This document shows, piece after piece, positions 4,671-52,822 of a stretch of DNA of 64,000 nt (its first letter is position 1; each line of letters begins with the position of its first letter). Position numbers and translations under genes: made by a program. The notes under the pieces were generated by a model, which did no database searches, had not been told where the DNA came from, and worked only from the letters and a program-made list of their open reading frames with translations. This DNA is from Diplocarpon mali (lineage: Eukaryota; Ascomycota; Leotiomycetes; Helotiales; Drepanopezizaceae): the NCBI GenBank assembly GCA_024741835.1, contig JAENRP010000214.1, forward strand, positions 1 to 64,000, in the 5' to 3' direction.

Positions 4671-4678
4671 AAAGCTAA

Positions 4679-8244: not shown

Positions 8245-8490
8245 TATGGAGACCTGGGACGGATAGGTCTCGTGACATATATCACATGATCGGCGCAGGA
8301 CAGTGGGAGGATAAAAGGGCCATCTTCTATATATAGAGACAGCGCGTGTCGCTATAGTACTAAATATACCCTATACTTAGGACTTGTTCCTAATATCTTA
8401 TTTAAGAGAGCCTGCTTATAGTACTTCCTCCTCTTTATTTTTAGGTCTTCCCTTAGGCCTATTCTTATATTATCTCCCCTTAGTTTTATA
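8245..8490 (+). repeat. 5' LTR of giant copy 1
   Basis: A 246-bp LTR starting TATGGAGACC and ending TTTTATA, probably TG...CA before RIP. Its left end retains CTCGTGACATATATCACATG, which is TA-rich in the 3' LTR. Its right part is more mutated than in the 3' LTR. Confidence 0.93.
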
Positions 8491-8511
8491 TTAGTGACCT
8501 ACGCAGGGACC
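8491..8511 (+). other. Probable primer-binding site of giant copy 1
   Basis: TTAGTGACCTACGCAGGGAC directly follows the LTR (copy 2: TTAGTGACTTATGCAAGGAC at 27563). With one RIP change reversed, TGGTGACCTACGCAGG would pair with a tRNA 3' end ending in CCA. I cannot name the tRNA. Confidence 0.5.
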
Positions 8512-9433
8512 GATTTCTTAAGATTTCCGTCCTTATATAACCTTATCGATCTCTTAGTTTATAAATAAAAGACCGGCCTTTGAAATACGTCTTTAAAACA
8601 CTTATAGCATCTTAATTAACTCTAAAAACCTTATCCTTAATCGCCTAGTTACTTGGAACTATCGATTTTCGTTTAGCAACTATTAATAACCTTAGATTTT
8701 CCCTTTTCGGCTCTGCTTTGAAAACCCCTATTTTCTTCCTTAACTTTGAGATTTTCGGAATTTTCGGCTTCCTAATATAAAAAGTTTGGCGAACCCTATA
8801 ATAGCAATTTTAAATAGTAGTAGTTTCGAGTACTTGAGTAATACTAAGCGCAAACTCTAATTGGAAGTATCTCCTTAGAATCTTTAGAAATCCGAATCTA
8901 ATAATTCAGCCGCCTTAGCTTAATAGAACTTTAAAAACTGCCTTAGAATCGTCTCTAAAGACCCCTTTATTCTAAGGACTAATAGGAATTGGCCTAAAGG
9001 CTAAGAAGAATCTTAAATATAAACCTTATCTTAGAAATTTATTTTAAATTAAGTAAACCTTATTTTATTACAATTAGTTGCAACGCTCTTATTAGCTATT
9101 TAGTACCTACTTAGAATCTCTTAGCAAACTCAGATTAAACTTTTAATAGAATTCGGAATTCTACTCCTAAGCCTAGCTTATAAGTAAGAGGATAAAAAGA
9201 TATCCTTAAATAACTTAAGGCTACTACCTACTTTTTTAATATTAATATTAGAAAATATTAAAAACAATATTAATTTTGAACTTTTCGCTAACCTTTTATT
9301 TAAATCTTTTCAAACTTGTCTTAGTCACTTTAAGATTGACTCGGATTTTAAACGTTCTTTAAGCCCTTTTGAATTTCGAAGTACTCCTCTTAGTAACTAA
9401 TTATATAATATTAAAGCTTCCCCTTTGCCCCTT
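8512..9433 (+). other. Leader of giant copy 1
   Basis: About 0.9 kb without a convincing frame before the gag ATG. It contains one palindromic motif at 9163-9187. The matching leader in copy 2 is 27584-28504 with its motif at 28234. No other signal is recognised. Confidence 0.6.
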
Positions 9434-12058
9434 ATGGATTCTATCAACTTAGACGGTTAGTATAAAACAATAATAGCCGCATTTAAGGCTATTACTAGCC
9501 ACTTTCCCCTCCTTAGTTCCTCTAGTGCTCCTTACTTTATAAGAGCTAATATTACTAATTTCCTTAAGTAATATAAGAAAACTTATTACGATTTTGATAT
9601 TCTATAAGTAGATATGATTTCTTAGCTCCCTTGCTACTATAACTATATAAGTAAAAACATTATCAAATCCCTCTTTAAATAGAAGATATATAATTTATAG
9701 GAACTCCTTATCAAGGCTCTTAAGTCTGAATTCTAAGAATTTGATAGATAGCAGATTTACAATACTTTAGCTTTCTTAAAGGAATTTGTTTTAATCACTT
9801 GAACTCCTAAAGAACTTAAGAACTACTATCGGACTTTTACTTATATATTAAATACCTTAATCAGCTAGAAAATACTTAGCAAAGTTGAATAAGGCCGCCT
9901 TTTCTTACTTGGATTACCTACTGGCCTTTAAAATAAGATTATTAAGCATTTTAGGATTAATAAGCAAGACCTTATAACCTTTACCTTATTTAAAGAATTC
10001 TTAGCCTTTGCTTTAAAATCAGATCTTAGTAAGAGAACTATTGATGCTATAGAATAGGAAAAAGCCCCTACTCCCTCTTATACTAAAGACCTTAAGAGCC
10101 TAGTCTAAGAATACTCGAAATCTTTAGAAGTTATAAAGGAGGTAAAGAAGAACCTAATAGTTATACCTTTTACTTACAGTCCTAACTTAAGAGTAAGATC
10201 CAACCCTAGAATTAAGGAACTTAAGACCTAATTTGCAGAACTCCGAATCTAAAGCTTAGAAATTAGGATTAATAATCTCTTATAGGAAAAATAGCATATT
10301 TTATAATTAAATAATAGGCAAAACTCAGCTATTATAAGCCAACCTAGTAGTTCCTATTACCAAACTCCTGCTTCTTATCATTCGGAACAACCAGCTAATA
10401 TAAGAATGCAATAGCTGGCTAAAGAAGGAGGAATTGATCCTAACTAGCATTCTACTAATATCAATGCTATAGGGTACTAAGGAAATAGCAATAGAAGACG
10501 ATTAACCTGCAACTTTTGCAATAATAAAGAACCTAACTGCGCTTTATATAAGTATTATAACAATTGCCCTCTTTTCCTTCGTTTTATTAATACTAAGGTT
10601 ATATATATTAATAAGTATAGGATGCTTTGCATTAAAGATCCTAGGCTAGAAGCTATCCTTATTAAAAAGTACTAGAATCGCTTATAGTTATAGACTATTC
10701 AAATGATAATATATAGTATGAAATAGGACGAGAATTTAGTTAAACGATAGTATATTATAGAAATAAATGCTAAAATTCCAACTTATATATATATAGGTCT
10801 AACTAGCAACCTACCTAAGGGAGTTCTTAAAGAACCGGCTTTTAACTAAACAGCTACGGAAGTTAAAGGCATCTTTATTTTAGGATAGGTTAATAATAAT
10901 ATTTCAGCTAATATTAATGCTACTTCTATATCTAGGAACCCTCGGAATTCTTAGCGTCCTTCTAAATCTACCACTCCTTTAATACTAATAAAACCAGCCA
11001 AAGTCTAGAAATCAATGCGTATAACTTAGGAATCTTAATATAGAGTCCAAATGCTAAAAGATACCTAATAATCTAGAACTATAGTAGATAAGGATAAAGC
11101 TAATATAATAGACGATTTAATCAGAGATATAATAGACGAAGATGGTTCTAAGCTTAAAGATTAAGAAGTTGAAGTTATTACGCAGACCCTTGACCTTAAG
11201 CAAAAGAGACAGATATTGAATTAAGAAAAATTCGTCGATAAATACGCTAGTTCAATTGCAATAGAGAAAGCTATAGAGAATATTATAGCTTAGCAAATTA
11301 ACCTTATATTTAAAGACCTATTTAGTTTGACTAAACGCTTTAATAAAGTGCTAAGAAAGCATATCCTAGTTGCCTTTAAAGATTTAAATAATAATAAGGA
11401 AATAGAAATTATAATATAAAAGAACTTTAAAAAGCACTTAGCCTTAATCAAATGTCTTTAAATTGCAAAAGACGAAGGAACCTAAAGGTACTATAATATT
11501 ATGGCAATAGCTTTAATATCTTAGAATATTAACTGAAATTGTTTAGCAGTTATAATGAAAAGCCCTATTATTATTTATTTTATAAAAGAATCAGTTAAAG
11601 TAAAGGCTCTAATCGATTGTAATTTAGAAGTTAATGCAATAATTAGAAAAGTGGCGGAAATAGCTTAATTAATAATTGTTAGCAATCGACTCCTTATTTA
11701 TTCGACTATCTTTAGATTGAAATACAATTTTAATAGATAGGTGAAAAATGTAAAGGTTAGAGTTAGAGGAATTATTAATTATACTAACTTTCTAATAATA
11801 GAGAATTCTTCAAACGATATTCTTTTAAGAATATCCTTTATTTTAGAATTTTAACTAATATTTAACTATTTTAAAGATAGTCTTATAAAAGCTAGTCTTT
11901 AAAATATAGATCGATCTTTAAAAGGACAAATGGTTATTGCAAGAGATATAGCCGAATTCTAAAATAAGGTTTTAAGAAACGATTAGCTAGTATAAGGGCT
12001 AGGCTTAATGCTAGTAAAAGGAGGCACCTAGCGAGGAATTATAGCGAAAGAAAGGTGA
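9434..12058 (+). pseudogene. Giant element copy 1 gag-protease (875 codons)
   Basis: The frame starts at ATG 9434 and ends at TGA 12056-12058. A TGA end is notable because RIP-made stops here are TAA/TAG; copy 2 has the same TGA. It opens MDSINLDG, followed by a helical capsid-like region with a Gln-rich end. A Cys-rich nucleocapsid segment CNFCNNKEPNCALYKYYNNC lies at about 10507-10570. A retropepsin-like block, KALIDCNLEVNAI, lies near 11605-11645, where ALIDSG would be usual, so the active-site Asp is present but the following Gly is altered. A palindromic peptide (T-Y-S-P-N-L-R-V) at 10172 lies upstream of the Cys-rich segment. No frameshift is needed over 2.6 kb. Confidence 0.85.
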
Positions 12059-15000
12059 GTTTGCCGATTTTGAATAATAGTGATTTAACTCGCAGTCTTA
12101 GACTAAGAGTCAAATCTGGAATTTTAAAAAATAGTGCAATTAGTATTTTATTAGCTTAATAATTAAGAAAAAAGAAAAATAAGGTAAAGAAGAGAGTTCG
12201 TTTTACAAATTTTAATAATTTACTAATCATTTTAAAAAACCTAAAAACCACTTATAAGCCGGACCTGCGAGTGAAAAATAATAAAATTACTAATAACATT
12301 TCCATTTATACACTTTAAATTAATAACTTAGAAAATCTTTTATTTATTTTTAAAAAGGAAAATTCAGACCGTTTCGCAGGATTTAATAAAAAAGGAAAGA
12401 AGTAGAGAAGCATAGTACTAGCTAATATTCGAACTATATATAAAAGTAAGGCCGATAAAGTACAATTAGTAGATTAAGGAATCTTTAATAGCTTAAAGCC
12501 TAAAGGATTAGATGATTAGTTTAAATAAGATAAGAAGCTTCGACCTTTAAAGCTAAGTAGCAAATTCGATAAGTTTATTATAGGTAGATTTTCTAATAAA
12601 CCTATCGGATATTAGCTAATAAAAGAATGTTTCGATATATTAAAAATTAAAAAAGACTTAATAGAGTAAGAATGCAAACTACTTTATAAAACCTTAATAA
12701 ATCGAAAGGACGCCTTAGCTTTTAATTAGATAGAACTTGGCCAGATTCGAGAAGAGGTTACGCCTTATATTAAGATTAAGATAATACCTTACAAAGCCTA
12801 GTAAGAGAAAACATTCGGTATTCCTAAAGCTCTTTAAAAAAAGGTAATCGAAATATTAAAGGATAAGCTAAAGCAAAGTATTCTCGAGTTCTATAATAGC
12901 CCTTATAAGAACAAATGGTTCCTAGTTGCTAAGAAAGAAAAGGGAACTTATAAACTAATAATAATAGTAGTAGAAATAAACCGAGTAACTGTTAAGGACG
13001 CCAACGTTCCTCTGAATATAGATGAGTTCTTAAATGAATTCGTAGGATTAACCCGCAGCTCTCTTATTAACTTCTTCTTTAAATACAACCAATTTATTCT
13101 TAATATTAAATCAAAAGATATAATAGCAATTCAAACCCCTCTTAGGCTACTTCAGATAATAAGATTACCTTAAGGGGCTATAAATTCGATTGCTTAATTT
13201 ATCCAAGTAATCTATAAGATACTAGTAGATTGTATACCTAATATTGCGCTCTCTTATATAAATAATATAAAAGTAAAAGGATTAAGATCATTTTATAATT
13301 ATAAAGAAGTTCTCTTTAATATATAACGATTTATAATAAAATACATTTAGAACCTAGACTAAGTGCTTATACAATTCGAAAGGGCAGAAGCAATAGTTGG
13401 TCCAAAGTTATAATACTATCTTTTATTAATAGAAATTGTTGGTTTTATTACTAATTCCAATAGCCGAAGTCCTTAAAGGGCTAAAGTACTTAAAATCGAC
13501 GAATAAAAGAGGTATGATAATATGGCAGAAGCTCGCACATTTATTAGCATTATAGTATACTATTGCATATAAATCAAGGATTTTGCTAAAAAGGCAGTAC
13601 CTATTTATTCCTTATTCTAAAAAGGGGCTGAGTTTTAGTAGGAGGAACCTTAAATAGAGGCTATAAAATAACTAAAGCAGGCGTTGCTTAAAGCGCTATA
13701 TCTGATTAAAATAGACTATGGAGCTGATGCTAGGCCAATTATACTAATAGTTGACGCAAGCTTAATTAGATAGGGTGCTATCCTTTAATAAGCTAATAGC
13801 TAGTAGAGAAAATATCTAGCTTGCTTTGAAAGTGGTCTTTAGAATCTAGTAGAGATAAAGTATAATGCTATTAAATAGGAATGCAAAGGAGCCTTAAAAG
13901 TAATAAAAAAGATGAGAAGCGACCTTTATAGCACTTACTTTATCTTTAAAACTAATGCTAAAGTGCTAGTAGAATAATTGAATAAAGCTATAAGTGACCT
14001 ACCTAAAGCCTTGCTAATGAAATAGATTACTTAGATAAGACTAATAGACTTTAAAGTCAAATATATTTTAAGAATAAAAAATACCGCCGCCGATAGCCTT
14101 TTAAAAAGAACTCGTCCTTACCCCTTTGATTTAATTAAAGAAGATAAAATAGATATTAATAAGTAGGTAGAAAACAAAGTTAATTATCTATTAATATATC
14201 GCCTTAAAGGGACTCGACTTGCGGTCCTAGCCTATAAGTCAAATAAGAGAATTTTATTACTTAACTACTTAAGTAATTCTAAAGAAATCGCAAAATTTTT
14301 AATTACGCTTAAATAACTAAAGACAGTTGCTCTTAAGGATTTTTAGAAATTTAAAGCTAAAGCTCTAATTTATCTAATATAAGAAAGACAATTGTTTAAA
14401 AGGAGTAATAACTCATTTCCTATATAGCTCTATTTAAATGATGATAAACTGCAAGCTAAGGCTATTTAAGATATTTATAAGGAGACTGGCTATTAAGGAG
14501 CTAAGTCTACCTACTACCAACTCTTAAGGAAATTCTTTTAAAAGGGTTCTTTTAAGGACTATAAAGCCTTTATGAAAAGTTGTATCCCTTATTAGAAATG
14601 AAAACCTAGTTATAAAGAGAATCCTTTATTCCTAACCTAGCTATTAGGCCTTTTCTATAAAGTCAGTCTTAATATTATATAAGTACTAATAACTGAAAAT
14701 AGGATTATATATTTTATTTTAATAAAGGAAGACCTATTAAGATGGCCTAAAGGACAACCTTTAAGATCTGCTAACTTTAAATCTATTATAAAGTTCCTTT
14801 AGGAAGATATAGTCTATTACTATAGACTTTTTAGCAGACTAACTATTAATAGAGGCTTTGAAAATAAAGGAGTAGTTAAAGCTTTTTTGCGAAAATATAG
14901 TATTAAATGGGTTCAAATCTCAGCGTATAACTCGAAAGCTAATAGAGTGGTAAAGCGAGGATATTGCGATATTTTAAATAGGCTATCTAAAGTTACTTGC

Positions 15001-15795
15001 AAAGGATTTAAGAATTGGATAAAACACTTTTATAAAATACTCTTTGCTTATTGAACGATAATTTATAAACTGACTAGAGTTATACCATTTTTCCTTATTT
15101 ATAGTAGAGAGGCATAGCTCCCTTTTGAATCCTAATAGCCTATTTGGAGATTATTCGATTATAATTAAATTTAGAACTGTTCTGATTTACTAGTAATAAG
15201 ATGCTGATAACTTAAGCTTTAAGATATAAATATAAAGGAAATCATTTTGCGAAAGAAACGATATTAGGAAAAAGCTAAGGAAGTATAGGCTGCTTTTAAA
15301 GTACTTAAAATGCATCCTATTTGAAAAGATAATCTTGTCTTAATTTATAATATTATAAGAAGTATTAATATATTAGCTAATACCAAACTTGACTATTGAT
15401 AGCTTAGTCTATTTAAGGTTAAATCTAAGTAGAAAGAAAAAGGATACTATTCTCTTTAGGAACTTGATAGAGTCGATATTAAAGGAACCTTTGCAGTTAA
15501 TTAACTAAAGCGCTTTTATTAATGCGACTAGACCTTATTCCCTTTAGAAGACGAATTAGAAATTGATATAACCTCTGAATCTTTTATAGGAACTAATAGC
15601 AATATAAGCAACTTTGAACCTTTAGATGAAGACTAAGATTTTTCTAACTTAACTTATAAGCCGGTCTTATAAGTAAAGAATATTAAAATACCCAACTAAT
15701 CGCAACCCTAAGTCATTATTCTTAAAATATCCGAAGAACGCAAATAGGAATATTAAACGATTTCCTAGCCTATTAATTGTCCTACCTTCCTCTAA
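12040..15795 (+). pseudogene. Giant element copy 1 pol: RT, RNase H, integrase (about 1250 codons)
   Basis: The frame overlaps the end of gag in the -1 register and stays in one register to about 15795. RT lies at about 12830-13400 (KNKWFLVAKKEKGTYKLI; YxDD box as YINN near 13255). RNase H starts with KIDYGADARPIILIVDASLI at 13705. The integrase zinc region is near 14480-14610 (GAKSTYYQLLRKFF...SCIPYQ), followed by a core with FENKGVVKAF and a RVIPFFLIYSREAQLPFE end. The order is Ty3/Gypsy. No chromodomain is seen. Palindromic peptides lie at 12088, 12250 and 15652 in frame, and at 14217 in another frame between RNase H and integrase. YxDD is destroyed and many TAA/TAG are present, so it is inactive. 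Confidence 0.87.
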
Positions 15796-16068
15796 TCCTT
15801 ATTTTTATATTTTTAGTAAGGTTGCCTCCTTTATTATTTAAGATATGGATCTTTTAGGATTACTTTAAATTCTTGCCTGCTCTAACTTATTTTATATTCT
15901 TAATATTAGCCTTTAATTATAGCATTCCTATTACTTTCCTTAAATAATAAATAAAAAGTCTAATTTCCTTAATATATATATAGTAAATCTATTGCAGCTT
16001 ATATGCCCTTTTAATTCTTATATCCTATTAAAATCTCTTATTTATACTCCCTATCTTTTATAAGCAAT

Positions 16069-19000
16069 ATGCCTTTAAAGAACTTATAAATGGTTTTATC
16101 TGCTATAATAAGGGATAAATAAGCACTGGTTATAAACTTCTCTTAAGATAGTAGAGCTATTGCATCATTAGAAAGCTTTAAGTCGACCTACGTAGCCTTA
16201 GGAAATATAGAGTATTAAAAACTCCTTTTAGCTTATGCAAATACTATTAATAACCTTTTAACTTAAGTAGCCCTTGGAATTCTTTAATTTAACGACTTCC
16301 TAACTGAAGAATTAAAACTAAAGGGAATCTTTAAAGAGGAGTTCTTAGCTAATATAAATTAATATATGACCTTGGCTAACACTTTTAGAACGGATTAAGA
16401 TAAAAGAGAAGAATCTATTCAATAACTAAATAATTTAGCTACTAATAAAAGAGGACTCCTATTTCATTTGCGCTTCTTAATAAATATTGATTCTAATAAT
16501 AGAAGACAAGTGTTTTTAAAAATTCTTAAGGAAAATACTCTTACTATTAAAGTTATTTAGATTCTTAATTTCTTTATCATTTAAAAAGGAGTAGTAAAAT
16601 TCTAAGGCAATCGAATTTGTAGTCGCAGATTTGTAAGCCTATCTAATGCAGTACTTATAGCAGCTGATAAGGCTATAAAAAGATCAAATTAAGCTATAGA
16701 TATTACCCTACTTAATAGTACTATTATTAATATGCTAGGGCTTTGCACTTCTATTTATAATTTGCTTCTTTTAAAAGAAAACTGGACTTTTATATTAAAG
16801 TTTAAATAAGATTTCTTTAATAATAAAAAAGAGAATTAGTTATTTATAGTTAAGCCTGCCTTGAAATTCGCCTCTTAGCCTAAAGATACGATAAGTGCTG
16901 AACTATATAATTTAACTCGCAGTCCTAGATTAGGAGTTAGAAATGAGAATTTTAAAACTGGACCTAACCTGCCTTTTGCTAAAATGATTTTAGAAACTGC
17001 GGCTAAATAGATTGCTTAAATGCTTAGCATAGCCTCTTTAGAATTTTCGGAATCTTTAAAGGACTCTCCTTTAGCTAAATGACCAATTCTAGCTCGACCT
17101 TTAAGAAGGATAAATCGTTTAATAGCCACTTTAGCTAATTTGCAATTTAAAATTAAAGGATTGCGCGCTCGCTTAGACTCCTTCTTTAATAACTTAAAGG
17201 AGCTAGTTCTTGACTTCTTTATATCTATATGCAACCGCTTTAAAAACGATAATATAAGAGAAGACCTTATTCCTACTACTTTAAAGATAATTGGGAGAGC
17301 CGTTAGATAGATTTAATAGCTTATCTTAGACGAGTTCGCCCTTACGGATATTGTTTAATTCTTTAATAATTATAAAAGTTAAGAACCTAGTCTCTTAGAT
17401 GCTAAGCGAGACTATTTTATCTTATAAGAAAGAGAATATAAGAAGGAATCTATTAATTAGGATATTTGTAATTATAGTAATATGCTTCAATCGGTCATTT
17501 TCAACCTTGAGCTTAAAGAACGATATAATATTCAAGTGTCCTCTGCTATAAAAACTCGCTTTTAATAGTATCTTCTTAGCGTAGGAATCAAAGGGAGAGG
17601 ACTTTGCGACCTTTATATTCGCTCTCTTTCGGTTTACTATAGCCTTAATTATAAAGGATTTGATATTAATAAAACTATTAAATACCTCGAACTTTTATAT
17701 ATAGTAGAAGATATTGATCTTTTTCTAATCTACTTTAATAATTAGTTCTTTATCTTTTTAAGGATACGCAAATCTAACCTATTAATAATAAAGGTATTTT
17801 TAAGTGCTATAAAATTTAAGGCTAATCCTAAAGCCTTAAAAGCGTTAAAGCCGATTAAATAGAACAATTCCTTCTTATTAATATTATTAAATAATAAATA
17901 GCAGGAGGAAATAGAGGAAGAAGGGTCAATTATAATGCCTAAACCCTTTGGATACCGCTTTTTAACCGACAATTTTACTATTAATAATAGTACTTTTATA
18001 AGTATATTCCTCTCTATTATAAGATAAGAAGTAGAGATATATCTTTATTACTTCTGCCTTATGGATAGCGCAACCTCTATACCTTCTTATTTTCTTTATA
18101 ATATAATATTCAATCCTATTTAATAAGTCCTTCAAATGCACTATAGACTCTACCTCTTAGCTATAATAGTAAGAAGTAAAGGAACCTATCAGCTTATAGT
18201 CTACCTTAAACCTCTTTAATTGATTGGCCTTAGTCTTTATAATTAAGTCGTTTTAATAAAGAGAGATGCAAGTGCTGCTAATAAAGAAATTCCGATTTTC
18301 ACTCGCGGTCTTAGCCTGCGAGTCAATTTTATTAGAAAGCAAGTCTTAGATTATTAGATCCTATCGATCGGATAAGGGCTAGCTTTTAAAAGCCTTAATA
18401 AGTAGGTCGGCTCTTAGTCGAATATGAAACTCACTCTATCTGCGAAGAAGATAAGTCGATAGACTTCTTAGGCACTCGGTTCAAAATCTCAACTAACTTG
18501 AATAATTGTAAAATTAAAGCAAAAGGAGATCTTGCGACTTATTACTAATAATAGCAATCTAATTATAATAATAATAAAATAGGGATATCTTTTTAAAATG
18601 CTTTTAGACAATTCTTATAAAACTAGTGGTTTTATAGCCTTTTGTAATAACTATATAGCTATTTGCAATAAGAATACCTTAGAAAATAAAACTCGAATCT
18701 CCGATCTTATCTTTTCAGTCTCTGCTCTAAAGCAACCCTTAGTACCTTAATAGATTAATATAAGTAGAACTACTATACCTTTTAAGGCAGCTTTTCATCT
18801 TGAAAACTATAGTAGCCTTTTTAAAGCTATTATTAGTTAACGCTCTTAAATAGACCTATTGGTTATAATCGAAGTATAGGAGTTGTTTCTTTTTAATAAA
18901 GATGAATTGAAAATACATCTTATAGAATATAATTAGGAACTCTTTAATGCCCTTATTAAGGCTTAGACAAACGTTATAAATACTGAATCGCTTCTTTATA

Positions 19001-19362
19001 AACTCAAGTCTTAAGGATAATGCGATAAAGTAAATGCTATCCGAGAGCCTAATGCACTAATTGATAAAGATATTATTATAAGAAAATTCGGAAAAGAGAC
19101 AAGCTATAATACTAGTATAGTACTAGACCCTAATTTAGGAACCAATCCCCTGTTTTTACCCTTAAGCTTAGAGACGCTAAGACTGACTCGCGAGCCTAAC
19201 CTGCGAGTGAGGTTGGACTCGGCCAGCTTTAGCCTATAAGATGGTTCGGATGAACTTCGGCTACTAAATCTAGGAATACTAATAGAAGATCCTTTAAGAG
19301 AGGTCCCTAAAGCTGAAAAATCATTAAGAAGCAAGAATTAATGCAAAAGAAGAAGACTCTAA
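16069..19362 (+). pseudogene. ORF3 of giant copy 1: unknown 1098-codon protein, paralogue of ORF4
   Basis: I do not recognise this family. The frame begins ATGCCTTTAAAG and ends at TAA 19360-19362 after a basic tail KRRRL; length and frame are identical in copy 2. It starts 273 bp after pol. It is rich in Leu, Ile, Asn and Lys, with many predicted helices and no clear membrane or catalytic motif. Blocks shared with ORF4 include IQKGVVKFQGNR (codon about 195), GRAVRQI..LILDEFALTDIVQFF (about 425), MHYRLYLLA (about 690) and a late DLLVII..ELF block. Palindromic peptides sit at codons 283, 745 and 1040. It could be an accessory, env-position or captured host gene; this is undecided. Confidence 0.75.
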
Positions 19363-19745
19363 AGTGATAATAAAACCGATAATTAAATCAAATGATTTAG
19401 AGAATTGAGTCTACTACCCCCTTTGAAAAATCATTTAAAGAAATTGCGAATTAGAAGTTGAATTTTTTAGGATTATCTACCTTCTATATACCTGCCCCTC
19501 TTTATTCTTAACCTATTATTCTATTTTATATATATTCTTTATTTACTTTGTTCTTTATATAATTTATCCTTTGATTATTTCCTTTATATACAACTTTCTA
19601 ACGCTTACCTTTGAAATATCGTCCTTACCTTTAATAATTATCATTTACCAAAAGTGGGTCCTTATATATATTACATCCTACTTTTGTTCCTACTTCTAGG
19701 CTTATTATACCTACTTTTTCTTTGTATACTAGTACGATTCCAAAC

Positions 19746-19810
19746 TCTATAAATAAGCCTTTCCTTGCACTACGATTTTACTTTTTTTTACTTCTTCTAT
19801 AACCCTACTA
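19746..19810 (+). promoter_or_regulatory. Possible internal core promoter upstream of ORF4
   Basis: In the 626-bp spacer between ORF3 and ORF4, CTCTATAAATAAGCC is followed by a pyrimidine-rich run (TTTTACTTTTTTTTACTTCTTC). The same arrangement is kept in copy 2 at 38820-38875. It looks like a TATA box and pyrimidine-rich initiator region and could give ORF4 its own transcript. This is an inference from base pattern only. Confidence 0.35.
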
Positions 19811-19988
19811 GCATTAATAATACTACTAGTACTATCTTTTTATTATTAATCTTTTCTGATTTAAGCCTCTTATTTCGATAAAATTCTTTTTAAAGATTTA
19901 TTCCTTAGTAAGGAACCTTATTACTTTTATTAAATAATTCATTATAGCCCCCTTTAGTATAGGTAAAAAGGTCATACTTAAGAAGAAT

Positions 19989-23417: not shown

Positions 23418-23786
23418 TATCTAAGTTAGTACTATTTTTAATTGTTTTTGCAATTCTATAGCTTATTTATCTATTTTACTAGTTTCGTTTTCTAACTCCT
23501 AGGCCCGGCCTATAGGTAAAAAGNNNNNNNNNNNNNNNNNNNNNNNNNNNNNNNNNNNNNNNNNNNNNNNNNNNNNNNNNNNNNNNNNNNNNNNNNNAAA
23601 AAAAAACCCCTTCTTTTTTTTCTTTTACCTTTAATAATAATATAGTCCTAGTTTAGGCCTTTTAATATATTAGTTTTCTCGCACTTAGGGTTTGCTAGTA
23701 ATTGATATGCTATTGCCTTGACTTATATTATTTTATATTCTTTGCTAATAGTAATAGGGGCTACTACTTTTATTATTTAAGATATA
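23418..23786 (+). other. 3' tail of giant copy 1 with assembly gap
   Basis: This non-coding tail holds the last palindromic motif (23495), a 74-N gap (23524-23597) followed by runs of A, C and T, and AT-rich sequence up to the LTR. No clear polypurine tract is visible before the 3' LTR. The copy 2 gap falls at the same relative site. Confidence 0.8.
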
Positions 23787-24032: not shown

Positions 24033-24036
24033 CTAG

Positions 24037-31129: not shown

Positions 31130-34100
31130 GTTTGCCGATTTTAAATAATAGTGATTTGACTCGCAGTCTTAGACTAAGAGTTAAATCTAGGATTTTGAAA
31201 AATAGTATAATCGGCGTTTTATTAGCTTAACAATTAAGAAAAAAGAAAAATAAGGTAGAGAAGAGAGTTTGTTTTATAAATTTCGACAATTTACTAATCA
31301 TTTTAAAAAACCTAAAAACCACTTATAAGCTGGACCTACGAGTGAAAAATAATAAAATTACTAATAACATTTCCATTTACGCACTTTAAATTAATAACTT
31401 AGAAAATCTTTTATTTATTTTTAAAAAGGAAAATTCAGACCGTTTTATAGGATTTAATAAAAAAGGAAAGAAGTAGAAAAGCATAGTACTAGCTAATATT
31501 CGAACTATATATAAAAGTAAGGCTGATAAAGTACAACTGGTAGATTAGGGAATCTCTAATAGCTTAAAGCCTAAAGGACTAAAGGATTGGTTTAAATAAG
31601 ATAAGAAGCTTTAACCTTTAAAGCTAGGTGGCAAATTCGATAAGTTTATTATAAGTAGATTTTCTAATAAACCTATCGGATATTAACTAATAAAAGAACG
31701 TTTCGATATATTGAAAATTGGAAAAGACTTAATAGAGTAAGAATGCAAACTACTTTATAAAACCTTAATAAATTAAAAGGATGCTTTAGCTTTTGATTAA
31801 ACGGAACTTGGCCAGATTCGAAAAGAGGTCACGCCTTATATTAAGATTAAGATAATACCCTATAAAGCTTAGTAAGAGAAAACATTTAGGGTCCTTAAAG
31901 CTCTTTAAGAAAAGGTAATTAAAATATTAAAGGATAGGCTAAAGTAAAGTGTTCTCGAGTTCTATAATAGCCTTTATAAGAACAAATGGTTCTTAATTAT
32001 TAAGAAGGAGAAGGGAACTTACAGACTAATAATAGTAGTAGTAAAGATGAACCAAGTAACTATTAAAGACGCTAATATTCCTTCGAATATAGATAAGTTC
32101 TTAAATGAATTTGCAGGATTAACCTGCAGCTCTCTTATTAACTTCTTTTCTAAATATGACTAATTTATTCTTAATATTAAATTGAGAGATATAATAGTAA
32201 TTCAAACCCCTCTTAGGCTACTTCAAATAATAAGATTACCTTAAAGGGCTATAAATTCGATCGCTCAATTTATCTAAGTAATTTATAAGATACTAGTAGA
32301 TTGTATACCTAATATTATACTCCCTTATATAAACGATATAAAAGTAAAAGGATTAAGATTATTCTATAATTATAAAGAAGTTCTCCTTAGTATATAGCAA
32401 TTTATAATAGAATATATTCAAAACCTAAACTAAGTACTTATATAATTCGAAAGGGCAAGAGCAATAGTCGGTCCAAAGTTATAATACTATCTTCTATTAA
32501 TAGAAATTATTAGTTTCATTACTGATTCCAATGGCCAAAGTCCTTAGAGGGCTAAAGTACTTAAAATCGACAAATAGAAGAGGTATGATAATATAGCAAA
32601 AGCTCGCACATTTATTAGTATTATAGTATACTATCGCATTTAAATTAAGGATTTTGCTAAAAAGGCAGCACCTATTTACTCCTTATTTCGGAAAGGGGCT
32701 GAGTTTCAATAGGAAAAACCCTAAATGGAAGCTATGAAACAACTAAAGCAAGCGTTGCTTAAGGTGCCTTATTTGATCAAAATAGACTATAGAGCCGACG
32801 CTAGGCCAATTATATTAACAATTAACGCAAGCTTAATCAGATAGGGTACTATCCTTTAATAAGCTGATACCTAATAGAAAAGACATCTAGCTCGCTTTGA
32901 AAGTGGTCTTTAGAATCTAGTAAAGATAAAGTATAATACTATTAAATAGGAATGCAAAGGCGCTTTAAAGGCGATGAAAAAGATAAGAAGCAACCTTTAT
33001 AGCACTTACTTCATTTTTAAAACTGATGCTAAAGTGCTAGTAAAACAATTGAATAGAGCTGCAAGCAACTTACTAAGAGCCTTACTAATAAAATAGATTA
33101 CTTAAATAAGATTAATAGACTTTGAAGTCAAATATATTCTAGGAATGAAAAATACTACCGCTAATAGCCTTTTAAAAAGAACTTAGCCCTACCCCTTTAA
33201 TTTAATTAAAGAAGATGAAATAGATATTAATAAGTAGGTAGAAAACAAAGTTGGTTATCTATTAATATATCGCCTTAAAGGGACTCGACTCGCGAGCCTA
33301 GCCTATAAGTCAAATAAAAGAATTTTATTACTTAACTACTTAAGTAACTCTAAAGAAATCGCAAAGTTTTTAATTATACTTAAACAATTAAAGACAGTTG
33401 CTCCTAAGGATTTTTAGAAATTCAAAGCTAAAGCTTTGATTTATCTAATATAAGAAAGACGATTATTTAAAAGGAGCGATAACTCATTCCTTATATAACT
33501 CTACTTAAACGATAAAAAACTAAGGGCTAAGGCTATCTAAGATATTTATAAGGAAACTGGCTATTAAAGAGCTAAGTCTACTTACTACTAATTCTTAAGA
33601 AAATTCTTTTAGAAAGGCTCTTTTAAAAACTGCAAAGCTTTTATAAAGAATTGCGTCCCTTATTAGAAACGAAAACCTAGTCGTAAGGAAAATCCCTTAT
33701 TCCTAACCTAGCTATTAGGCCTTTTTTATAAAGTCAGCCTTAATATTATATAAGTACTAACTATTAAAAATAGGATAATATATTTTATTTTAATAAAGGA
33801 AGACCTATTAGAATGGCTTAAAGGATAACCTTTAAGATCTACTAACTCTAAATCTATTGTAAAGTTCCTTTAAGAAGACGTAGTCTATTACTATAGACTT
33901 TTTAGCAAATTAACTATTAATAGAGGCCTTGAAAACAAAGGAGTAGTTAAAGCTTTCTTATAAAAATATAATATTAAACGGGTTCAAATCTTAGTATATA
34001 ACTCAAAAGCTAATAGAATAGTAAAACGAAGATACTATAATATTCTTAATAGTTTGTCCAAAGTTACTTACAAAGGATTCAAAGATTGGATAAAACGCTT

Positions 34101-34866
34101 TTATAAAATACTCTTTACTTATTAAATGATAATTTATAAACCGACTAGAGTTATACTATTCTTCCTTATCTATAGCAAAGAGGCATAGCTCCCTCTTAAA
34201 TCCTAATAGCCTATTTAGAAATTGTTCGACTATAGTCAAATTCGGAACTGTTCCAATTTGCTTATAATAAGATGCTAACAACTTAAGCTCTAAGATATAA
34301 ATATAAAGGAAATCATTTTATAAAAGAAATAATATTAGGAAAAAGCTAAAGAAGCGTAGGCTGCTTCTAAAGTACTTAAAATATATCCTATTAGAAAAGA
34401 TAATCTTATCCTAATCTATAATATTGTAAAAAGTATTAATATATCTATAGATACTAAACTTAACTATTAATAGCTTAATCTATTTAAGGTTAAGTCTAAG
34501 CAAGAAGAAAAGGGATACTATTCTCTTTAGGAACTTAATAGAATCGATATTAAAGGAACCTTTGCAGCCAATTGACTAAAGCGCTTTTATTAATGCAACT
34601 AGACCTTATTCTCCTTAGAAGATAAATCAGAAATTAATATAACCTCCGAATCTTCTATAAGAACTGATAGTAATATAAGTAATTTTGAACCCTTAGATAA
34701 AGACTAAGATTTTTCTAATTTGACCTATAAGCCGGTTCTATAAGTAAAGAATATTAAAATACCTAACTAATTATAACCTTAAGTTATTATTCCTAAAATA
34801 TCCGAAGAACGCAAGTAGGAATACTAAACGATTTCCTAGCCTATTAATTATCTTACCTTCCTTTAA
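31111..34866 (+). pseudogene. Giant element copy 2 pol: RT, RNase H, integrase
   Basis: It is in the -1 register relative to gag, in one register to about 34866. The RT box is YIND near 32326-32341, less damaged than YINN of copy 1. RNase H begins KIDYRADARPIILT near 32780, with a clear DASL-type block (NASLIRQG). The integrase zinc region is near 33555-33680 (YKAFI..CVPYQ-like), and a C-terminal SREAQLPLKSQQP-like end lies near 34180. Palindromic motifs start at 31159, 31321, near 33288 and near 34724. It is inactive through TAA/TAG stops. It would have been made by -1 frameshifting or a similar mechanism. Confidence 0.85.
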
Positions 34867-35139
34867 TCCTTATTTTTACATTTTTAGCAAAGTCGCCTCC
34901 TTTATTATTTAAGATATAGATCTTTTAAGATCACTTTAAATTCTTACCTACTCTAACTTATTTTGCATTCTTAATATTGGCCTTTAATTATAATATTCCT
35001 ATTACTTTCCTTAAATAATAAATAAAAAGTCCAATTTCCTTAATATATATATAGTAAACCTATTGCAGCTTATATGCCCTTTTAATTCTTATACCCTATT
35101 AAACTCTCTTATTTATACTCCTTATCTTTTATAAGTAAT

Positions 35140-38100
35140 ATGCCTTTAAAGAACTTATAAATGGTTTTATCTACTACAATAGGAGATAAATAAGCACTAG
35201 TTATAAACTTCTCTTAAGATAGTAGAGCTATTACATTATTAAAGAGCTTTAAATCGACCTACGCAGCCTTAAGAGATATAGAGTAATAAAAATTCCTTTT
35301 AGCTTACGCGAATGCTATTAGTAACCTTTTAACCTAAGTAGCCTTTGGAATTCTTTAATTTAATAACTTCTTAATTAAAGAATTAAGACTAAAGGGAATC
35401 TCTAAAGAGGAATTCTTAGCCGACGCAAATTAATATATAACCTTAGCTAACACTTTCAAAATAGACTGAGATAAAAGGAAAGAATCTATTCGATAATTGG
35501 ATAATTTAGCCACTAATAAGAGAGGACTCCTATTTCATTTACGTTTCTTAATAAATATTGATTCTAATAATAGAAGGCGAGTATTATTAAAAATTCTTAA
35601 GGAAAACACTCTTATAGCCAGAGCTATTTAAATTCTCAATTTCTTTATTATTTAAGAAGGAGTAGTAAAATTCCAAGGCAATCGAATTCGCAATCGCAGA
35701 TTTATAGGCCTATTTAATATAGTACTTATAGCAGCTAATAGAGCTATAAAAAGATCAAATTAAGCTATAGATATTACCTTACCTAATAGTACTATTATTA
35801 ATATGCTAAGGCTTTGCGCTTCTGCTTATAGTTTGCTTATTTTAAAAGAAAACTTAACTCCTATATTAGAGTTTAGATAAGATTTCTTTAATAATAAAAA
35901 AGAGAATTGATTATTTGTAATTAAGCCTGCCTTGAAATTCGCCTCTTAGCTTAAAGATATAATAAATATTAAACTATATAATTTGACTCGCGGTCCTAGA
36001 TTAAGAGTTAGAAATGAGAATTTTAAAACTGGACCTAACCTGCCTTTTGCTAAAATGATTTTAGAAACTGCTGCCGAATAGACTGCTTAAACGCTTAGCG
36101 CAGCCTCTTTAGAATTTTCAGAATCTTTAAAGGACTCTCCTTTAGCTAAATAACTAATTTTAGCTTGACCTTTAAAAAGGATAGATCGTTTAATAGCCAC
36201 CTTAGCTAATTTGCAATTTAAAACCAAAGGATTGCGCGCTCGCTTAGACTCCTTCCTTAATAACTTAAAGGAGCTAGTTCTTGACTTCTTTATATTTATA
36301 TATAATTAATTTAGAAACGATAATATAAGGAAAGACCTTATTCCTCTTGCTTTAAAGATAATTAAGAAAGCCGTTAGATAGATTTAATAGCTTATTTTAG
36401 ATAAGTTTACCCCTGCGGATATTATTCAATTCTTTAATAATTATAGAAGTTAAGAACTTAGTCTCTTAAATGCCGAGTAGGACTATTTTATCTTATAAGA
36501 AAGAGAATGCGAAAAGGGATCTATTAATTAAGATATTTGTAATTATAGCAATATGCCTTAATCGGTTATTCTCAACCTTAAACTTAAAGAACAATATAAC
36601 ATTTAAGTATCTTCTATAATAAAAACTCGCTTTTGATAGTATCTTCCTAGCGTAAGAATCGAAGGAAGAAGACTTTACAACCTTTATATTCGCTCTCTTT
36701 TAGTTTACTATAGTCTTAATTATAAAGGATTTAATATTAATAAAATCATTAAATACTTCGAACTTCTTTATATAGTAAAAGATATTAATCTTTTTCTAAT
36801 CTACCTTAATAATCAATTCTTTATCTCTTTAAGGATATGCAAATCTAACCTATTAATAATAGAGGTATCTTTAGGTGCTATAAAATTTAAGGCTGATCCT
36901 AAAGCCTTAAAGGCGTTAGAGTTAATTAAATAGAACAATTCCTTCTTATCGATATTGCTAAATAATAAATAGCAAGAGGAAATAGAGGAAGAAGGGTCAA
37001 TTGTAATGCCTAAACCCTTCGGATGCCGCTTCTTAACCGATAATTTTACTACTAATAATAGTACTCTTATAAGTATATTCCTCTCTATTATAAGATAAAA
37101 AGCAAAGATGTATTTTTATTACTTCTGCCCTATAGATAGCGCAACCTTTATACCTTCTTATTTTCTTTATAATATGATATTTAGTCTCACTTAATAAGTC
37201 CTTCGAATATACTATAGACTCTACCTCTTAATTATAATAGTAAGAAATAGAGGAACCTATTAGCTTATAGCCTACCCTAAACCTCTTTAATTGATTAGCC
37301 TTAATCTTTATAATCGAATCATTTTAATAAAAAGAGATATAAGTGCTATTAATAAAGAAATTCCGATTTTCACTCGCAGTCCTGGCCTGCAAGTCAATTT
37401 TATTAGAAAGCAAGTCTTGGATTATTAGATCTTACCGATCGGATAAGGGCTAGCTTTTAAAAGCCTTAATAGGTAGGTCGGCTCTTAGTCGAATGTAAAA
37501 CTTACTCTATTTATAAAGAAGATAAGTCGATAGACTTCTTAAGCACTTAGTTCAAAATCTCAACTAGCTTGAATAACTGTAAAATTGAAGCGAAAGGAGA
37601 TCTTACGACCTATTACTAATAATAGTAATCCAATTATAGTAATAATAAAATAGGGATACCTTCTTAAAATGCTTTCGGATAATCCTTATAGGATTAGTGG
37701 TTTTATAGCCTTTTATAATAATTATATAACCATTTGCAATAAGAATACCTTAGAAAATGAGATTCGAATCTCCGATCTTATCTTTTCAATCTTTACTTTA
37801 AAGTAACCTCTAATACCTCGATAGATTAATATAAGTAGGACTACTACACCTTTTAAGGCAGCTTTTCATCTTAAGAACTATAGCAGCCTCTTTAAAGCCA
37901 TTATTAGTCGACGCTCTTAGACAGATCCATTAGTTATAATTGAAGTATAAGAGTTGTTTCTTCTTAATAAAGACGAATTGAAAATCCACTTTATAAAATA
38001 TAATTAGAAGCTCTTTAATGCCCTTATTAAGGCCTAGACAAACGTTACAAATACTAAGTCGCTTCTTTATAGACTTAAGTCTTAAGAATAACACAATAAA

Positions 38101-38433
38101 GTAAATGCTTTCTAAGAGCCTAATATACTAATTGATAAAGGCATTATTATAAGAAAATTCGGAAAAGAGATAAACTAAGACGCTAGTATAGTATTAGATC
38201 CTAATTTAAGAACCAATCCCCTATTTTTACCCTTAAGTTCAGAAATGCCAAGACTGACTCGCAAGCCCAGCCTGCGAGTAAGGTTGGACTTAGCTAACTT
38301 AAGCCTATAAGAAGGTTCAGATGAACCTTAGTCACCAAATCTAAGGGTACTAATAGAAGATCCTTTAAAAGAGGTCCTTAAAGCTAAGAAATCGCTAAGA
38401 AATGAGAACTAACGCAAAAGAAGAAGACTCTAA
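35140..38433 (+). pseudogene. ORF3 of giant copy 2: unknown 1098-codon protein
   Basis: The ATG is at 35140 and TAA at 38431-38433, the same length as copy 1 with no net indel. The blocks noted in copy 1 are recognisable (IQEGVVKFQGNR, KKAVRQIQQLILDKF, MHYRLYLL with M changed to I). The basic C-terminus (RKRRRL) is kept. It begins 273 bp after pol. Its homology to ORF4 at 39064 is end to end. Function unknown. It carries many TAA/TAG. Confidence 0.74.
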
Positions 38434-38819
38434 AGTAATAATAGAACTAATAATTAAGTCGACTCGATCTAAAGAATTATAGTCTATTCCTCTCTTTAAA
38501 AACCATTTGGAGAAATTGCAAATTAGATATTGAATTTTTTTAAGATTATCTACTTTCTATATACCTTTACCTCTTTATTCTCTATTCATTATTCTATTTT
38601 ATATATATTCTTTACTCTACTTTGTTCTTTATATAATCTACCCTTTGATTATTTCCTTTATATGTAACTTTCTAATGCTTACCTTTAAAATGTTATCCTT
38701 ACCTTTGAAGAATTATCATTCACTAATTATAGGTCCTTATATACGTTATACCTTACTTTTATTCCTACTTCTAAGCTTATTATACCTACTTTTCCTTTAT
38801 ACACTAGCGCGATTCCAAA

Positions 38820-38875
38820 CTCTATAAATAAGCCTCTCTCCGCACGACGATTTTACTTTTTTTTACTTTCTCTAT
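38820..38875 (+). promoter_or_regulatory. Possible internal core promoter upstream of ORF4, copy 2
   Basis: CTCTATAAATAAGCC followed by TTTTACTTTTTTTTACTTTC, at the same place as in copy 1. The TATAAATA word is untouched in both copies although the flanks are RIP-changed, but it contains no CpA, so this is weak evidence. Confidence 0.33.
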
Positions 38876-39063
38876 AACCCTACTAGACCTATAACACTAG
38901 TACTACTACTATTGTCTTTCTATTATTAATCTTTTCTAGTATAGGCCTCTTATATTATTAATCTTTCCTAAATAATCATCTCTTTATTTAAAGCTACCCT
39001 CCTGCCGACTAATTCATTATAATACTACTAAGCTTAAATAAGAAAGCTATACTTAAGAAGAAT

Positions 39064-42000
39064 ATGTCAATTGTTGCCTTAAGTAGCAAGTCAATGAATA
39101 CTATTAGCAATGAGCTAATATTAGAAGGTGGCTTTTTATAAAAGGGCAAGTTACTAAGATTATTAGAAGATATAGTAAGTACTTATAGAATATTAAGTAA
39201 AATAGAATAATAGGTATTCCTAAACTCATCTATTAAAGTATTGAACTATAGAATCTCTGCGGTTGAAAAAGGATTTTTAGACTTTAATGATTTTCTTAAG
39301 AATAAGCTTAAGATAAAGGGAATCGATTATGAAAAATTCCTATAAGAATATTAAAGGTATGCTAATTTAGTCGATCTATTTTAAAAGAATCGAGATAAGA
39401 AAAATGAGTATATAAAAAGGTTATTATAGTTTATAAGTAGTACTTATAGTATACTTTTTCAAATATACTTTATAACTAACATTACTACTAATAACGCCCT
39501 ATAGGGGCTTGGTAAAATTTTTAAGATATACTAACTAGTAGCAAAGGCTATATAGGTATTAAATCATTTCACTATCCAAAAGGGTATAAAAAAGCTATAA
39601 GGAAACAGTGCGCAAGGTAGAAAATTTATAGGTTTCTTAAATACTATTATCCACTCTGCTATTCAGACTATAAAGGACAGCCCCTCTTAGTATAATAATA
39701 TTGCATTGCTAGACTAAATAGTTTTAGATACCCTTAGTTTATAATAATTATAATATAGTTTACTTATTATAAAAGAAAAGATAATCTATCTAGCTAAGTA
39801 TACTATAAATTACTTTAATAATAAGACGGAAAGATAGGAGTTTATTATACCCGCCGCTTAGAAAATGCTGCCACCCTTAGAAGATTCAACTGATAAGCAA
39901 AATTTGACTCGTAGGCCTAGCCTATAGGTAGAAGTACTATATAAGGAGGATATCCCTAAGCTAGAGGTACCTATAATACCTAGAACTCAAATAGCTGACT
40001 ATCGCAATCACTAATCATCAGACTTAGACGAGTTTAATTCACTATCTTTAAAGATGCCCTAAACACTTAGAATACTAATAGCAAAGAAGTTGACTCGTAA
40101 GCCTAGCCTATAGGTCAGAACATATAACAACATAGACTCTAAAGATAATCTGACAGACAAAGAGAATAACCCTATTACTAATATAATAGAAATTTTTAAT
40201 AATATTAAAAAGGATATAGCCGATATTATGCAAACCTTTTCTAAAGACCTATAAAAATTTATTTTAAAATTCTATAAGTCAATAATAAAGCGTTTGAAAA
40301 AGGAAGGTTAAGGAGAAGTTTTGCTAGTATAAGAAGCGATAGCAAGAGCTATTAAACAAATTATAAAGCTATAATAAGACGAATTTTCTATAAACAACAT
40401 TATGCATTTCTTTATTAAGCATAAGAAATCAAAGGGCGACTATTATATCCTTAAAAAAAAGCCAGAAAATAGTATAATAATCATATCTATAGAGTGCTAT
40501 AAAGTTCCCTTTAATATTAAGATAATACTTTAATATAGCGATAGATTCAAGATTGCAATAATATTAGAGATAAAGATATAACTAAGCAAATTTATAATAA
40601 GGATATTCGATAACTTCAATTTCGAAAAATTTTATACTTTATATAAACGATAATATATATAATATTATAGGCTAATAATAGTATCTTTAACCAATAAGTA
40701 AGTTTCCTCTAATATATACAAATTTTACATTACACCTAACCTAAAGTTGTTTTTACTATACCTAAGGAATTATACAATTATAGCCACTAGCAATAGAATA
40801 GCAAGCCAGGTTAAGAAAGATATATTATTAGGTTTTGCTAAGTTTAAAGTAGAGCTTAAAGCTTTGAAATTATTCTATAATATCGCTTGGACTTCCGCCT
40901 GGTATAATGCTATACTAACTAGTAATAACCTAATATTACTTTATAGCAAAGGTTTTTTAAATATGCCTAAATTATTTAGCTACGCTTTCCTAAGTACTAT
41001 ACGCATATATAGTTATAGTAATTGTAAAAAGAATTCATTTTTAACATTAGTATAAGAGGAGCTAGAAATATACTAATACCATTTCCGGACCTTAGATAAG
41101 AAGCTAAGCCTCCTTTCCGCCTTCCTTTATAATATAACTTATAGCTTAATATAGCAGACCTTAAGGATATACTATAGTCTATATCTTAATGCTCTATTAA
41201 CTTATTATAATTCTTTATATAAGCTAGTAGCGTATCCTAAGCCTATATAGTTTATAAATATTAACTACTATTTGCGAATTATTTCTATTAAGATTAATGC
41301 TAATATAAGATTTATAAGATTGACTCCTAGGCCTAGCTTATAGGTCAATCCACCTAATAATAGAACTATTGACTATTATATAATTCTAGCAGCTAAACAA
41401 TCGACTAGAGAATTTGCTATATAAGAAAAGTCTTATAAGTCATCTATACTTATATCCTATTGCCTTAAGAACTCTTAGTAGATCTTATTGAATCTAATAT
41501 AAAGCGTAGCTTAATAAAAAGAATTAAATACTAAGGATAGAATAATTCTAAAGGAGTATATCTTTAATAAGACTACTCTATTCTTAGTATTTATAAGATA
41601 AGGCACCTTTATTAACCTGGATTCTGATAGAAAACCTAGAAAGGGTGGTTTTCTTACTATTAGTAATAACTATACAGAAGTTGTTAATAATAAATCACTT
41701 AAGAATGGCGCTAACCTAGAAGAATTCATTATCGATTCCATCTATATAAAGAAACTAAGTATAGTAAGATAGAGTATTACTAAAGAAGCCTTAGCCAAGT
41801 TTCGTATAACGCTTAGTATAATAAAAGGTGGTCTACTATTAGACGCTCTTATAGGAAGACGATTATAAAGTGATCTATTAGTAGTAATAACTATAAAGGA
41901 TTTATTTGCAAAAGACGTGTCTTAATTAATAGCATATCTGAAGAAGTATAAATAAGAACTTTTTAAAGATTTTGCTAATACTTAAAAGCTAGTTTAATAA

Positions 42001-42483
42001 CTAGAGCTATAGTTATATAGCAATAAGTCTTAGATAAAGACTAAGGATATAGATAATAATATCAAAGCTAATAATATGATTAATAAGACAATACTCCTTA
42101 AGAAGTATAGCATTAAGAAGCCTTATGTAAAGACACCTAATATAACTCTTAGGCCTAGCTTGCAACTTGATCTATTAAAGGGCAAGGCTAAAGAAGTAGT
42201 ATCTGTAGAATCTCCCGCCTTCCCCTCCTTTATTATTAACAATTCCCTTAAGGATAATGATAATAATAATAATAATAACGCTATTATATAAGTCTTTCTC
42301 CTTATCAGCAGAAGCTATTATACTATATTAGCATCCGCAAGGAGCATAGAAGCTCTTGCCATACTAAGACCTGCCTTGTCGGACACTAATAGCGATACTG
42401 TAAGAAGAAGTAGTCGTTTGGCAAAGAGAGTATTATCTAGTAATAATTCTCCTTATCCTTTAAAGAGAACCAAGGAAAACTGA
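39064..42483 (+). pseudogene. ORF4 of giant copy 2: unknown 1140-codon protein
   Basis: ATG 39064 opens MSIVALSSKSMNTISNELIL; the end is TGA 42481-42483 (copy 1 TAA, three codons longer). It contains the longest stop-free piece of the family (40747-41055; LRNYTIIATSNRIASQVKKD). The C-terminal Asn run from an AAT microsatellite is at about 42253-42282 and the basic RRSSRLAKRV near 42410. Palindromic peptides fall near codons 282, 344, 754 and 1028, as in copy 1. It is paralogous to ORF3. No domain that I can name; no transmembrane or signal peptide pattern is convincing. Confidence 0.75.
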
Positions 42484-42819
42484 CGCCTAAGTTGGTTCTA
42501 TTTTAATTGTATTTTTTTTTATAATTCTATAGCTTGTTTGTTTATTTTACTAATTTCTTTTTCTGACTCCTAGGCCTGGCCTATAGGTGAAAAGCGCATA
42601 TATANNNNNNNNNNNNNNNNNNNNNNNNNNNNNNAAAAACTCTCCTTTTTTTTTCTTTTACCTTTGATAATAATATAGCCCTAGTTTAGGCCTTTTAATA
42701 TATTAGTTTTCTCGCACTTAAGGTTTGCTAATAATTGACATACTATTGCCTTAACTTGTATTATTTTATATTCTTTGCTAATAGTAGTAGGGGCTACTAC
42801 TTTTATTATTTAGGATATA
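42484..42819 (+). other. 3' tail of giant copy 2 with assembly gap
   Basis: Non-coding tail with the last palindromic motif (42566), a 30-N gap (42605-42634) next to A- and T-runs, and the same AT-rich sequence as in copies 0 and 1 up to the LTR. Confidence 0.8.
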
Positions 42820-43064
42820 TATAGAGACTTAAGATAGATAGGTCTTATAATATATATCATATAATCGACGTAGGATAGTAGGAGGATAAAAGGGCCATCT
42901 TCTGTATATAGAGACAGCGCGTGTCGCTATAGTACTAAATATACCCCATACTTAGGACTTATTCCTAATATCTTATCTAGGAGAGCCCGCTTGTAGTGCT
43001 TCCTCCTCTTGTTTTTAAGTCTTCCCTTAGGCCTATTCTTGTGTTGTCTCCCCTCTGTTTTATA
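42820..43064 (+). repeat. 3' LTR of giant copy 2
   Basis: A 245-bp LTR starting TATAGAGACT and ending TTTTATA, followed by TSD GTAA (43065-43068). The right end keeps GTGTTGTCTCCCC, as in the other 3' LTRs. Confidence 0.93.
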
Positions 43065-43068
43065 GTAA

Positions 43069-45049: not shown

Positions 45050-45099
45050 CTAGTAGTACTTTCTTTTAAAAAGACCTTTTCAACTCGCATAAGGAAGTA

Positions 45100-52817: not shown

Positions 52818-52822
52818 CCTCC

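Follow-up and report, generated by a model that had tools for sequence, protein, structure and literature searches.

The 64,000-nucleotide stretch analysed here (the window; positions 1 to 64,000 of contig JAENRP010000214.1, assembly GCA_024741835.1, Diplocarpon mali) contains two copies of a 15.8-kb Ty3/Gypsy long terminal repeat (LTR) retrotransposon that carries two large reading frames, open reading frames (ORFs) 3 and 4, downstream of pol. Copy 1 lies at 8245-24032 (15,788 bp) and copy 2 at 27318-43064 (15,747 bp), and in each the order is LTR, gag-protease (gag-PR), reverse transcriptase (RT)-RNase H-integrase, ORF3, ORF4 and LTR, all on the + strand. Self-comparison of the two copies gave 85.5% identity over 15,318 columns. 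The LTRs, delimited by self-comparison and an edge check, were placed at 8245-8490 and 23787-24032 in copy 1 (246 bp, 86.9% identical to each other) and at 27318-27562 and 42820-43064 in copy 2 (245 bp), while a further 3' LTR at 63-307 (+) belongs to a third copy truncated by the window start. Copy 1 is flanked by CTAG (8241-8244 and 24033-24036) and copy 2 by GTAA (27314-27317 and 43065-43068), and these differing duplications indicate that the copies are separate insertions; both combine paired LTRs with a 4-bp target-site duplication, as in Ty3/Gypsy elements. An earlier interpretation made from the letters alone (the sequence-only reading) had described a 15.8-kb, four-ORF Gypsy element in two copies plus a third 3' end, and this was confirmed by the alignment, the LTR edges and the duplications.

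A stop-codon map of copy 1 revealed four reading-frame stretches poor in TGA. ORF1 (approximately 9100-11960; frame p mod 3 = 2, by stop map and translation) is presumably gag-like and then, near 11.6 kb, aspartic-protease-like, labels based on position and on motifs judged by eye. ORF2 (approximately 11980-15690; frame p mod 3 = 1) carries the RT, RNase H and integrase zinc domains and lies in the -1 frame relative to ORF1, the switch occurring near 11.9-12.0 kb in both copies; ORF3, after a gap, shares the frame of ORF2. ORF3 occupies 16069-19383 (1105 codons, 56 in-frame stops), and is separated by a T-rich spacer without coding signal (19384-19946; T 45%) from ORF4 at 19947-23411 (1155 codons aligned, 50 in-frame stops). 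Bounds transferred from copy 1 by pairwise alignment placed the copy 2 ORF1 region at 28171-31031, the ORF2 region at 31051-34761, ORF3 at 35140-38454 (63 stops and 1 frameshifting indel) and ORF4, an allele distinct from that of copy 1, at 39022-42477.

Pfam matches in the window copy comprised RT_RNaseH_2 (4e-8), RT_RNaseH (1e-6) and Integrase_H2C2 (9e-5, the last under its cut-off), and in another genomic copy, L059, Integrase_H2C2 (2e-13) and RT_RNaseH (9e-13) were both above cut-off. The L059 RT-RNase H matched the solved Ty3 enzyme structure 4ol8 (E=5e-25), Ty3 being the closest among solved structures, and RT and RNase H precede integrase, which is the Ty3/Gypsy domain order. An integrase C-terminal chromodomain was matched by Pfam neither in the mutated window copy nor in L059.

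A candidate primer-binding site lies directly inside the 5' LTR of copy 1 (8491-8510, +). Its 16-mer at 8495-8510, allowing at most one mismatch, matched the genome of origin at 106 places forward and 92 in reverse (control, 1 and 0); one of them, C150:33680, is spaced as expected from a scored ORF3 place. ARAGORN found no tRNA genes in the window, and no primer tRNA was matched to the candidate site. Runs of N are present at 23524-23597, 42605-42634 and 54824-54914, the first two lying downstream of ORF4 and ahead of the 3' LTR, one in each copy. Seventeen bases in the pol-ORF3 spacer (15830-15846) are identical to 23769-23785, directly before the 3' LTR; the repeat is AT-rich and hints weakly at a former element end between pol and ORF3.

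RIP damage and copies across the genome

No ORF in the window reaches 150 codons, and TpA/ApT is 1.33-1.68 across sixteen 4-kb bins, a mark of repeat-induced point mutation (RIP). Protein searches were made with profiles of 10 ORF3 copies and 9 ORF4 copies, with X at stops. The ORF3 profile retrieved one protein, PZA11_006394 (P0005) of Diplocarpon coronariae, and the ORF4 profile retrieved four D. coronariae proteins (P0001-P0004), comprising PZA11_006393 (P0001), PZA11_007950 and two unnamed products. PZA11_006393 and PZA11_006394 bear consecutive tags and contain no stops, and the longest contig listed for each has the same length. ORF3 of copy 1 matched P0005 at full length without gaps: 753 of the 1105 codons are identical, and C-to-T or G-to-A change (counted in any sequence context) accounts for 347 and leaves 5 unexplained; for ORF4 and P0001, the corresponding figures over 1155 codons were 786, 368 and 1. 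The damage in ORF3 and ORF4 is thus nearly all of RIP type (347/352 and 368/369 differences), whereas a shuffled ORF3 pairing explained 12% of mismatches and comparison of P0002-P0004 with the window ORF4 left 113-121 codons unexplained. The C-to-T/G-to-A excess and the high TpA/ApT are those of a RIP-mutated fungal repeat, and the window element carries the same two proteins as D. coronariae apart from RIP-type change. The window is therefore almost certainly from this species, an assignment based on these two element proteins and not on host genes. The frames of ORF3 and ORF4 described in the sequence-only reading are real, while their being open is not borne out, and the lengths given there (1098 codons for ORF3; 1140-1143 for ORF4) become 1105 and, as aligned, 1155.

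Across the genome of origin, 42 ORF3 places were scored of 623 candidates, each with 32-61 in-frame stops, and 40 ORF4 places of 622 candidates, each with 31-61. Stops were present in all 29 rows of the ORF3 copy alignment and all 30 rows of the ORF4 alignment, some rows being partial. When pairs were sought on one strand within a limit of 3 kb, at least 23 of the 42 scored ORF3 places had a scored ORF4 place downstream, and every pair found fell at 559-579 bp. This ruled out an insertion peculiar to the window copies, and with it the nested insertion, absent from other copies, that the sequence-only reading had raised as a case against itself.

Paralogy, exchange and selection in ORF3 and ORF4

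The read-throughs of ORF3 and ORF4 from the window (X at stops) matched each other with E=2e-98 and 28% identity over 1082 columns, which ruled out chance resemblance, and their undamaged relatives P0005 and P0001 are 35% identical over 1064 columns. Judged by these comparisons, the two genes are paralogues, as had been proposed. The spacers that precede them have only short AT-rich matches in common.

No relative was found outside D. coronariae in protein searches capped at approximately 8000 candidates, which is weak evidence of absence, as a third search recovered nothing but the first of its own sequences and missed even P0001-P0004; the same layout in unrelated fungi, which the sequence-only reading had named as support, was not found, all matches coming from one species. 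Nor did viral contigs yield a relative by the patterns tried. In Pfam, covering the window, the copies and the annotated proteins, the best matches were EF-G-binding_N (0.024, below cut-off) and PerB (0.31, in one of nine ORF4 copies); NCBIfam gave no match at E up to 1, PHROGs gave at best one family of unknown function (0.036), and the best matches by sequence in the PDB were at 0.23 and 0.29. A known domain or accessory family was rejected for want of a credible match in these four collections, in keeping with the earlier statement that the family was not recognised. It could be that a single capture of a host gene, followed by duplication inside the element, gave rise to ORF3 and ORF4, a history compatible with the explanation preferred below and one that we regard as quite possible, if somewhat short of probable. 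It agrees with the lack of viral relatives by the patterns tried, and the accessory ORFs of other elements are often captured (PMC5408684); against it stands the lack of any relative outside D. coronariae, a single-copy host homologue not having been sought separately.

Transversions between copies 1 and 2, counted in 500-bp bins, amounted to 0-1.8% over 8247-19746, rose to 3.6-9.6% in the seven bins from 19747 to 23246 and then fell to 0.95% and 0.36%. The rise starts inside the ORF3-ORF4 spacer at approximately 19.39 kb, and over 20250-23384 the copies differ at 22.6% of positions, with 5.8% transversions. Of 29 copies set against copy 1 across ORF4, six (one partial) showed 0-2 transversions and the others formed further allele groups; two mosaics, L016 and L022, switch ORF4 allele near 21.7 kb. 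In ten elements with both genes, paired by coordinates (C19, C24, C46, C662, C176, C260, C655, C76, C334 and C115), divergence from copy 1 was 0.07-1.02% transversions in ORF3 and 0-4.42% in ORF4, some rows being partial. Low divergence in ORF3 with variable divergence in ORF4 points to exchange of ORF4 between element lineages, and ORF4 behaves as a recombining cassette. One alternative attributes the differing ORF4 block to gene conversion among genomic copies instead of recombination at replication. Mosaic boundaries within ORF4 could arise by either route, but several copies combine different ORF4 alleles with a near-uniform backbone, which is easiest to explain if exchange preceded amplification, and gene conversion is considered rather unlikely.

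RIP makes no transversions, and selection was read from transversions at codon positions 1, 2 and 3. Between copies 1 and 2 these numbered 6, 4, 17 in gag-PR, 2, 2, 15 in pol, 3, 1, 11 in ORF3 (p=0.004) and 53, 18, 137 in ORF4 (p=4e-24), while the ORF3-ORF4 spacer was flat (6, 10, 8; p=0.61). Pooled transversion sites numbered 20, 26, 58 in ORF3 (29 rows; p=6e-6) and 85, 54, 218 in ORF4 (30 rows), and where the rarer class was seen at least twice, 7, 7, 18 in ORF3 (p=0.02, weaker) and 49, 31, 151 in ORF4. The third-position bias shows that active elements made use of both genes and that purifying selection acted on them; the element shares with other LTR elements bearing additional ORFs a coding region beyond gag-pol that selection has kept. 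Selection on ORF3 and ORF4 together with gag and pol, and their constant spacing in at least 23 pairs, fit use by the element, and make it very unlikely that the genes came from another mobile element or virus with the Gypsy element a mere carrier, even though two orphan proteins of approximately 1100 residues, with no domain match, are unusual for an LTR element.

The five annotated proteins are 1071-1157 residues long and contain long polar stretches. No membrane segment was found in any of them, the highest 19-residue Kyte-Doolittle mean being 0.93-1.26 and the N-terminal windows at most 0.41, and the absence of an envelope-like membrane pattern noted from the sequence alone was borne out. 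The membrane-spanning envelope protein after pol that marks env-bearing, errantivirus-like Gypsy elements is thus lacking, and hardly any weight can be given to the idea of ORF3 and ORF4 as envelope-like genes that have diverged, with allele exchange in ORF4 reflecting a change of receptor or serotype, despite their location downstream of pol and a pattern of allele exchange that recalls env exchange. An RKRRR cluster is present near the end of P0005, and PPKRTKEN forms the C terminus of three of the four ORF4 proteins.

Palindromes and neighbouring repeats

The palindromic peptides reported in the sequence-only reading are real and stem from a 23-base palindrome with the core ACTCGTRGGCCNGGCCYACGAGT, which reads TRGPGPRV in frame within ORF3 and ORF4. 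The ORF3 codons given for them (283, 745 and 1040) agree, while the ORF4 positions given as 282, 754 and 1028 become residues 297, 359, 769 and 1043 in P0001 numbering. Allowing RIP-type change and at most three other mismatches, 34 sites were found in the window, where ten Markov sequences gave an expectation of 0.3; examples are at 12250, 18301, 19186, 20832, 21018, 22248, 23070, 44567 and 44612. With at most two mismatches, the genome of origin contained 278 sites of the mutated form and 51 of a less mutated form, the two sets overlapping, and a reversed control gave none. Palindromes are found in gag, pol, ORF3, ORF4 and the non-coding parts of copy 1 and in the neighbouring repeats, also as 45-base tandem units, and they bring to mind the Rickettsia palindromic elements. 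Two of them share matching columns of ORF3 and ORF4, where purine/pyrimidine identity ranks 7 and 77 of 948 windows; these windows appear conserved between the paralogues, not beyond other motifs.

The remainder of the window also contains repeats. An 87-bp tandem repeat at 3204-3488 includes several degraded palindromes. Another mutated Gypsy element lies at 4648-7950 (+), with RNase H above cut-off and weak matches to a Tf2-1-like SH3, an integrase zinc domain and a chromodomain (1.5e-4, below cut-off). Direct repeats at 44750-45050 and 52518-52818, 7.8 kb apart and 91.7% identical, are perhaps LTRs, and Pfam had no match for the three frames on the reverse strand that lie between them. A mutated Copia-type element (RVT_2, 3e-10) at 57836-63250 (-) lies between direct repeats at 56034-56214 and 63408-63588.

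Relation to known elements and interpretation

The element shares with Ty3/Gypsy (Metaviridae) its LTRs and an RT-RNase H that precedes integrase, and differs in its length of 15.8 kb and in the two extra genes after pol. Botrytis, which also belongs to Helotiales, has a gene, brtn, reportedly termed antisense in the title of a 2011 paper by Zhao. BcGypsy1 of Botrytis cinerea bears brtn as an additional ORF (PMC8365987), and other fungal Gypsy elements are drawn with an 'add. ORF' of unknown function (PMC2864245). These elements are likewise fungal with an extra ORF of unknown function, but the parts of those papers available describe no large paralogous pair of sense ORFs, the comparison being by description and not by sequence. 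In bdelloid rotifer LTR elements, a varied ORF3 is GDSL, DEDDy or env-like (PMC5408684); a non-envelope ORF3 downstream of pol and modular exchange are common ground, whereas here there are two paralogues without a recognisable domain. The plant elements Ogre, Retand and Athila (PMC6431247, PMC7264820, PMC11963269) are likewise Gypsy elements of great length that carry extra ORFs, in another kingdom and likened here by description rather than by sequence. Extra ORFs in LTR elements are thus already known from rotifers, plants and fungi (PMC5408684, PMC6431247, PMC7264820, PMC8365987, PMC2864245). In the available portions of the literature, the D. coronariae genome papers among them, neither a description of this element nor a paralogous pair of large sense genes with one exchanging as an allele cassette was found.

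Taken on its anatomy, paralogy, selection and damage, the element is with high probability a RIP-damaged, multi-copy 15.8-kb Ty3/Gypsy family of D. coronariae, the apple blotch fungus. ORF3 and ORF4 go back to one ancestral gene by duplication, tandem duplication being the simplest reading, and purifying selection kept both while the element was active. ORF4 behaved as an exchangeable module: lineages whose gag, pol, ORF3 and LTRs are almost identical differ in ORF4, which is of another allele or a mosaic. Template switching between co-packaged RNAs would be the simplest way to produce this. The basic C-terminal clusters and the lack of a membrane segment suggest that both proteins may be soluble and nuclear, in which case they could aid the element's cycle by promoting its entry into the nucleus, its integration or its evasion of silencing, possibly acting as partners, and the diversification of ORF4 may be a response to the host or to rival elements. 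Such a soluble nuclear accessory role is offered tentatively, as one possibility. A speculative and improbable extension would place the two proteins in a class of their own among retrotransposon proteins, as a nuclear pair born by duplication that counters fungal genome defence (heterochromatin or RIP) and in which this conflict has shaped ORF4 into a rapidly exchanged module for recognition.

Several observations weigh against parts of this explanation. Pfam gave neither a gag nor a protease family for the mutated ORF1 frame, whether in the window copy or in L059. Full length is plain in P0001 and P0005 only, since P0003 and P0004 are without internal stretches and the C terminus of P0002 deviates, lacking the basic cluster of the other ORF4 proteins. 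The nuclear reading has those basic clusters as its sole support, and AlphaFold models of both proteins, from five-sequence alignments, were unusable (mean pLDDT, the predicted confidence score, 29.5 and 31.0). The pooled codon-position counts are not independent, as copies share ancestry, and the two-copy test avoids this but rests on 15 ORF3 sites.

The preferred explanation, a RIP-damaged Gypsy family with a duplicated pair of accessory genes, would extend the known cargo of LTR retrotransposons by a family of large orphan proteins that occur as a pair, in a strongly RIP-active fungus, and the undamaged annotated proteins make an accessory-gene role directly testable. The exchange of ORF4 alleles provides a natural record of recombination between fungal retrotransposon lineages and points to a gene that may be under changing selection.

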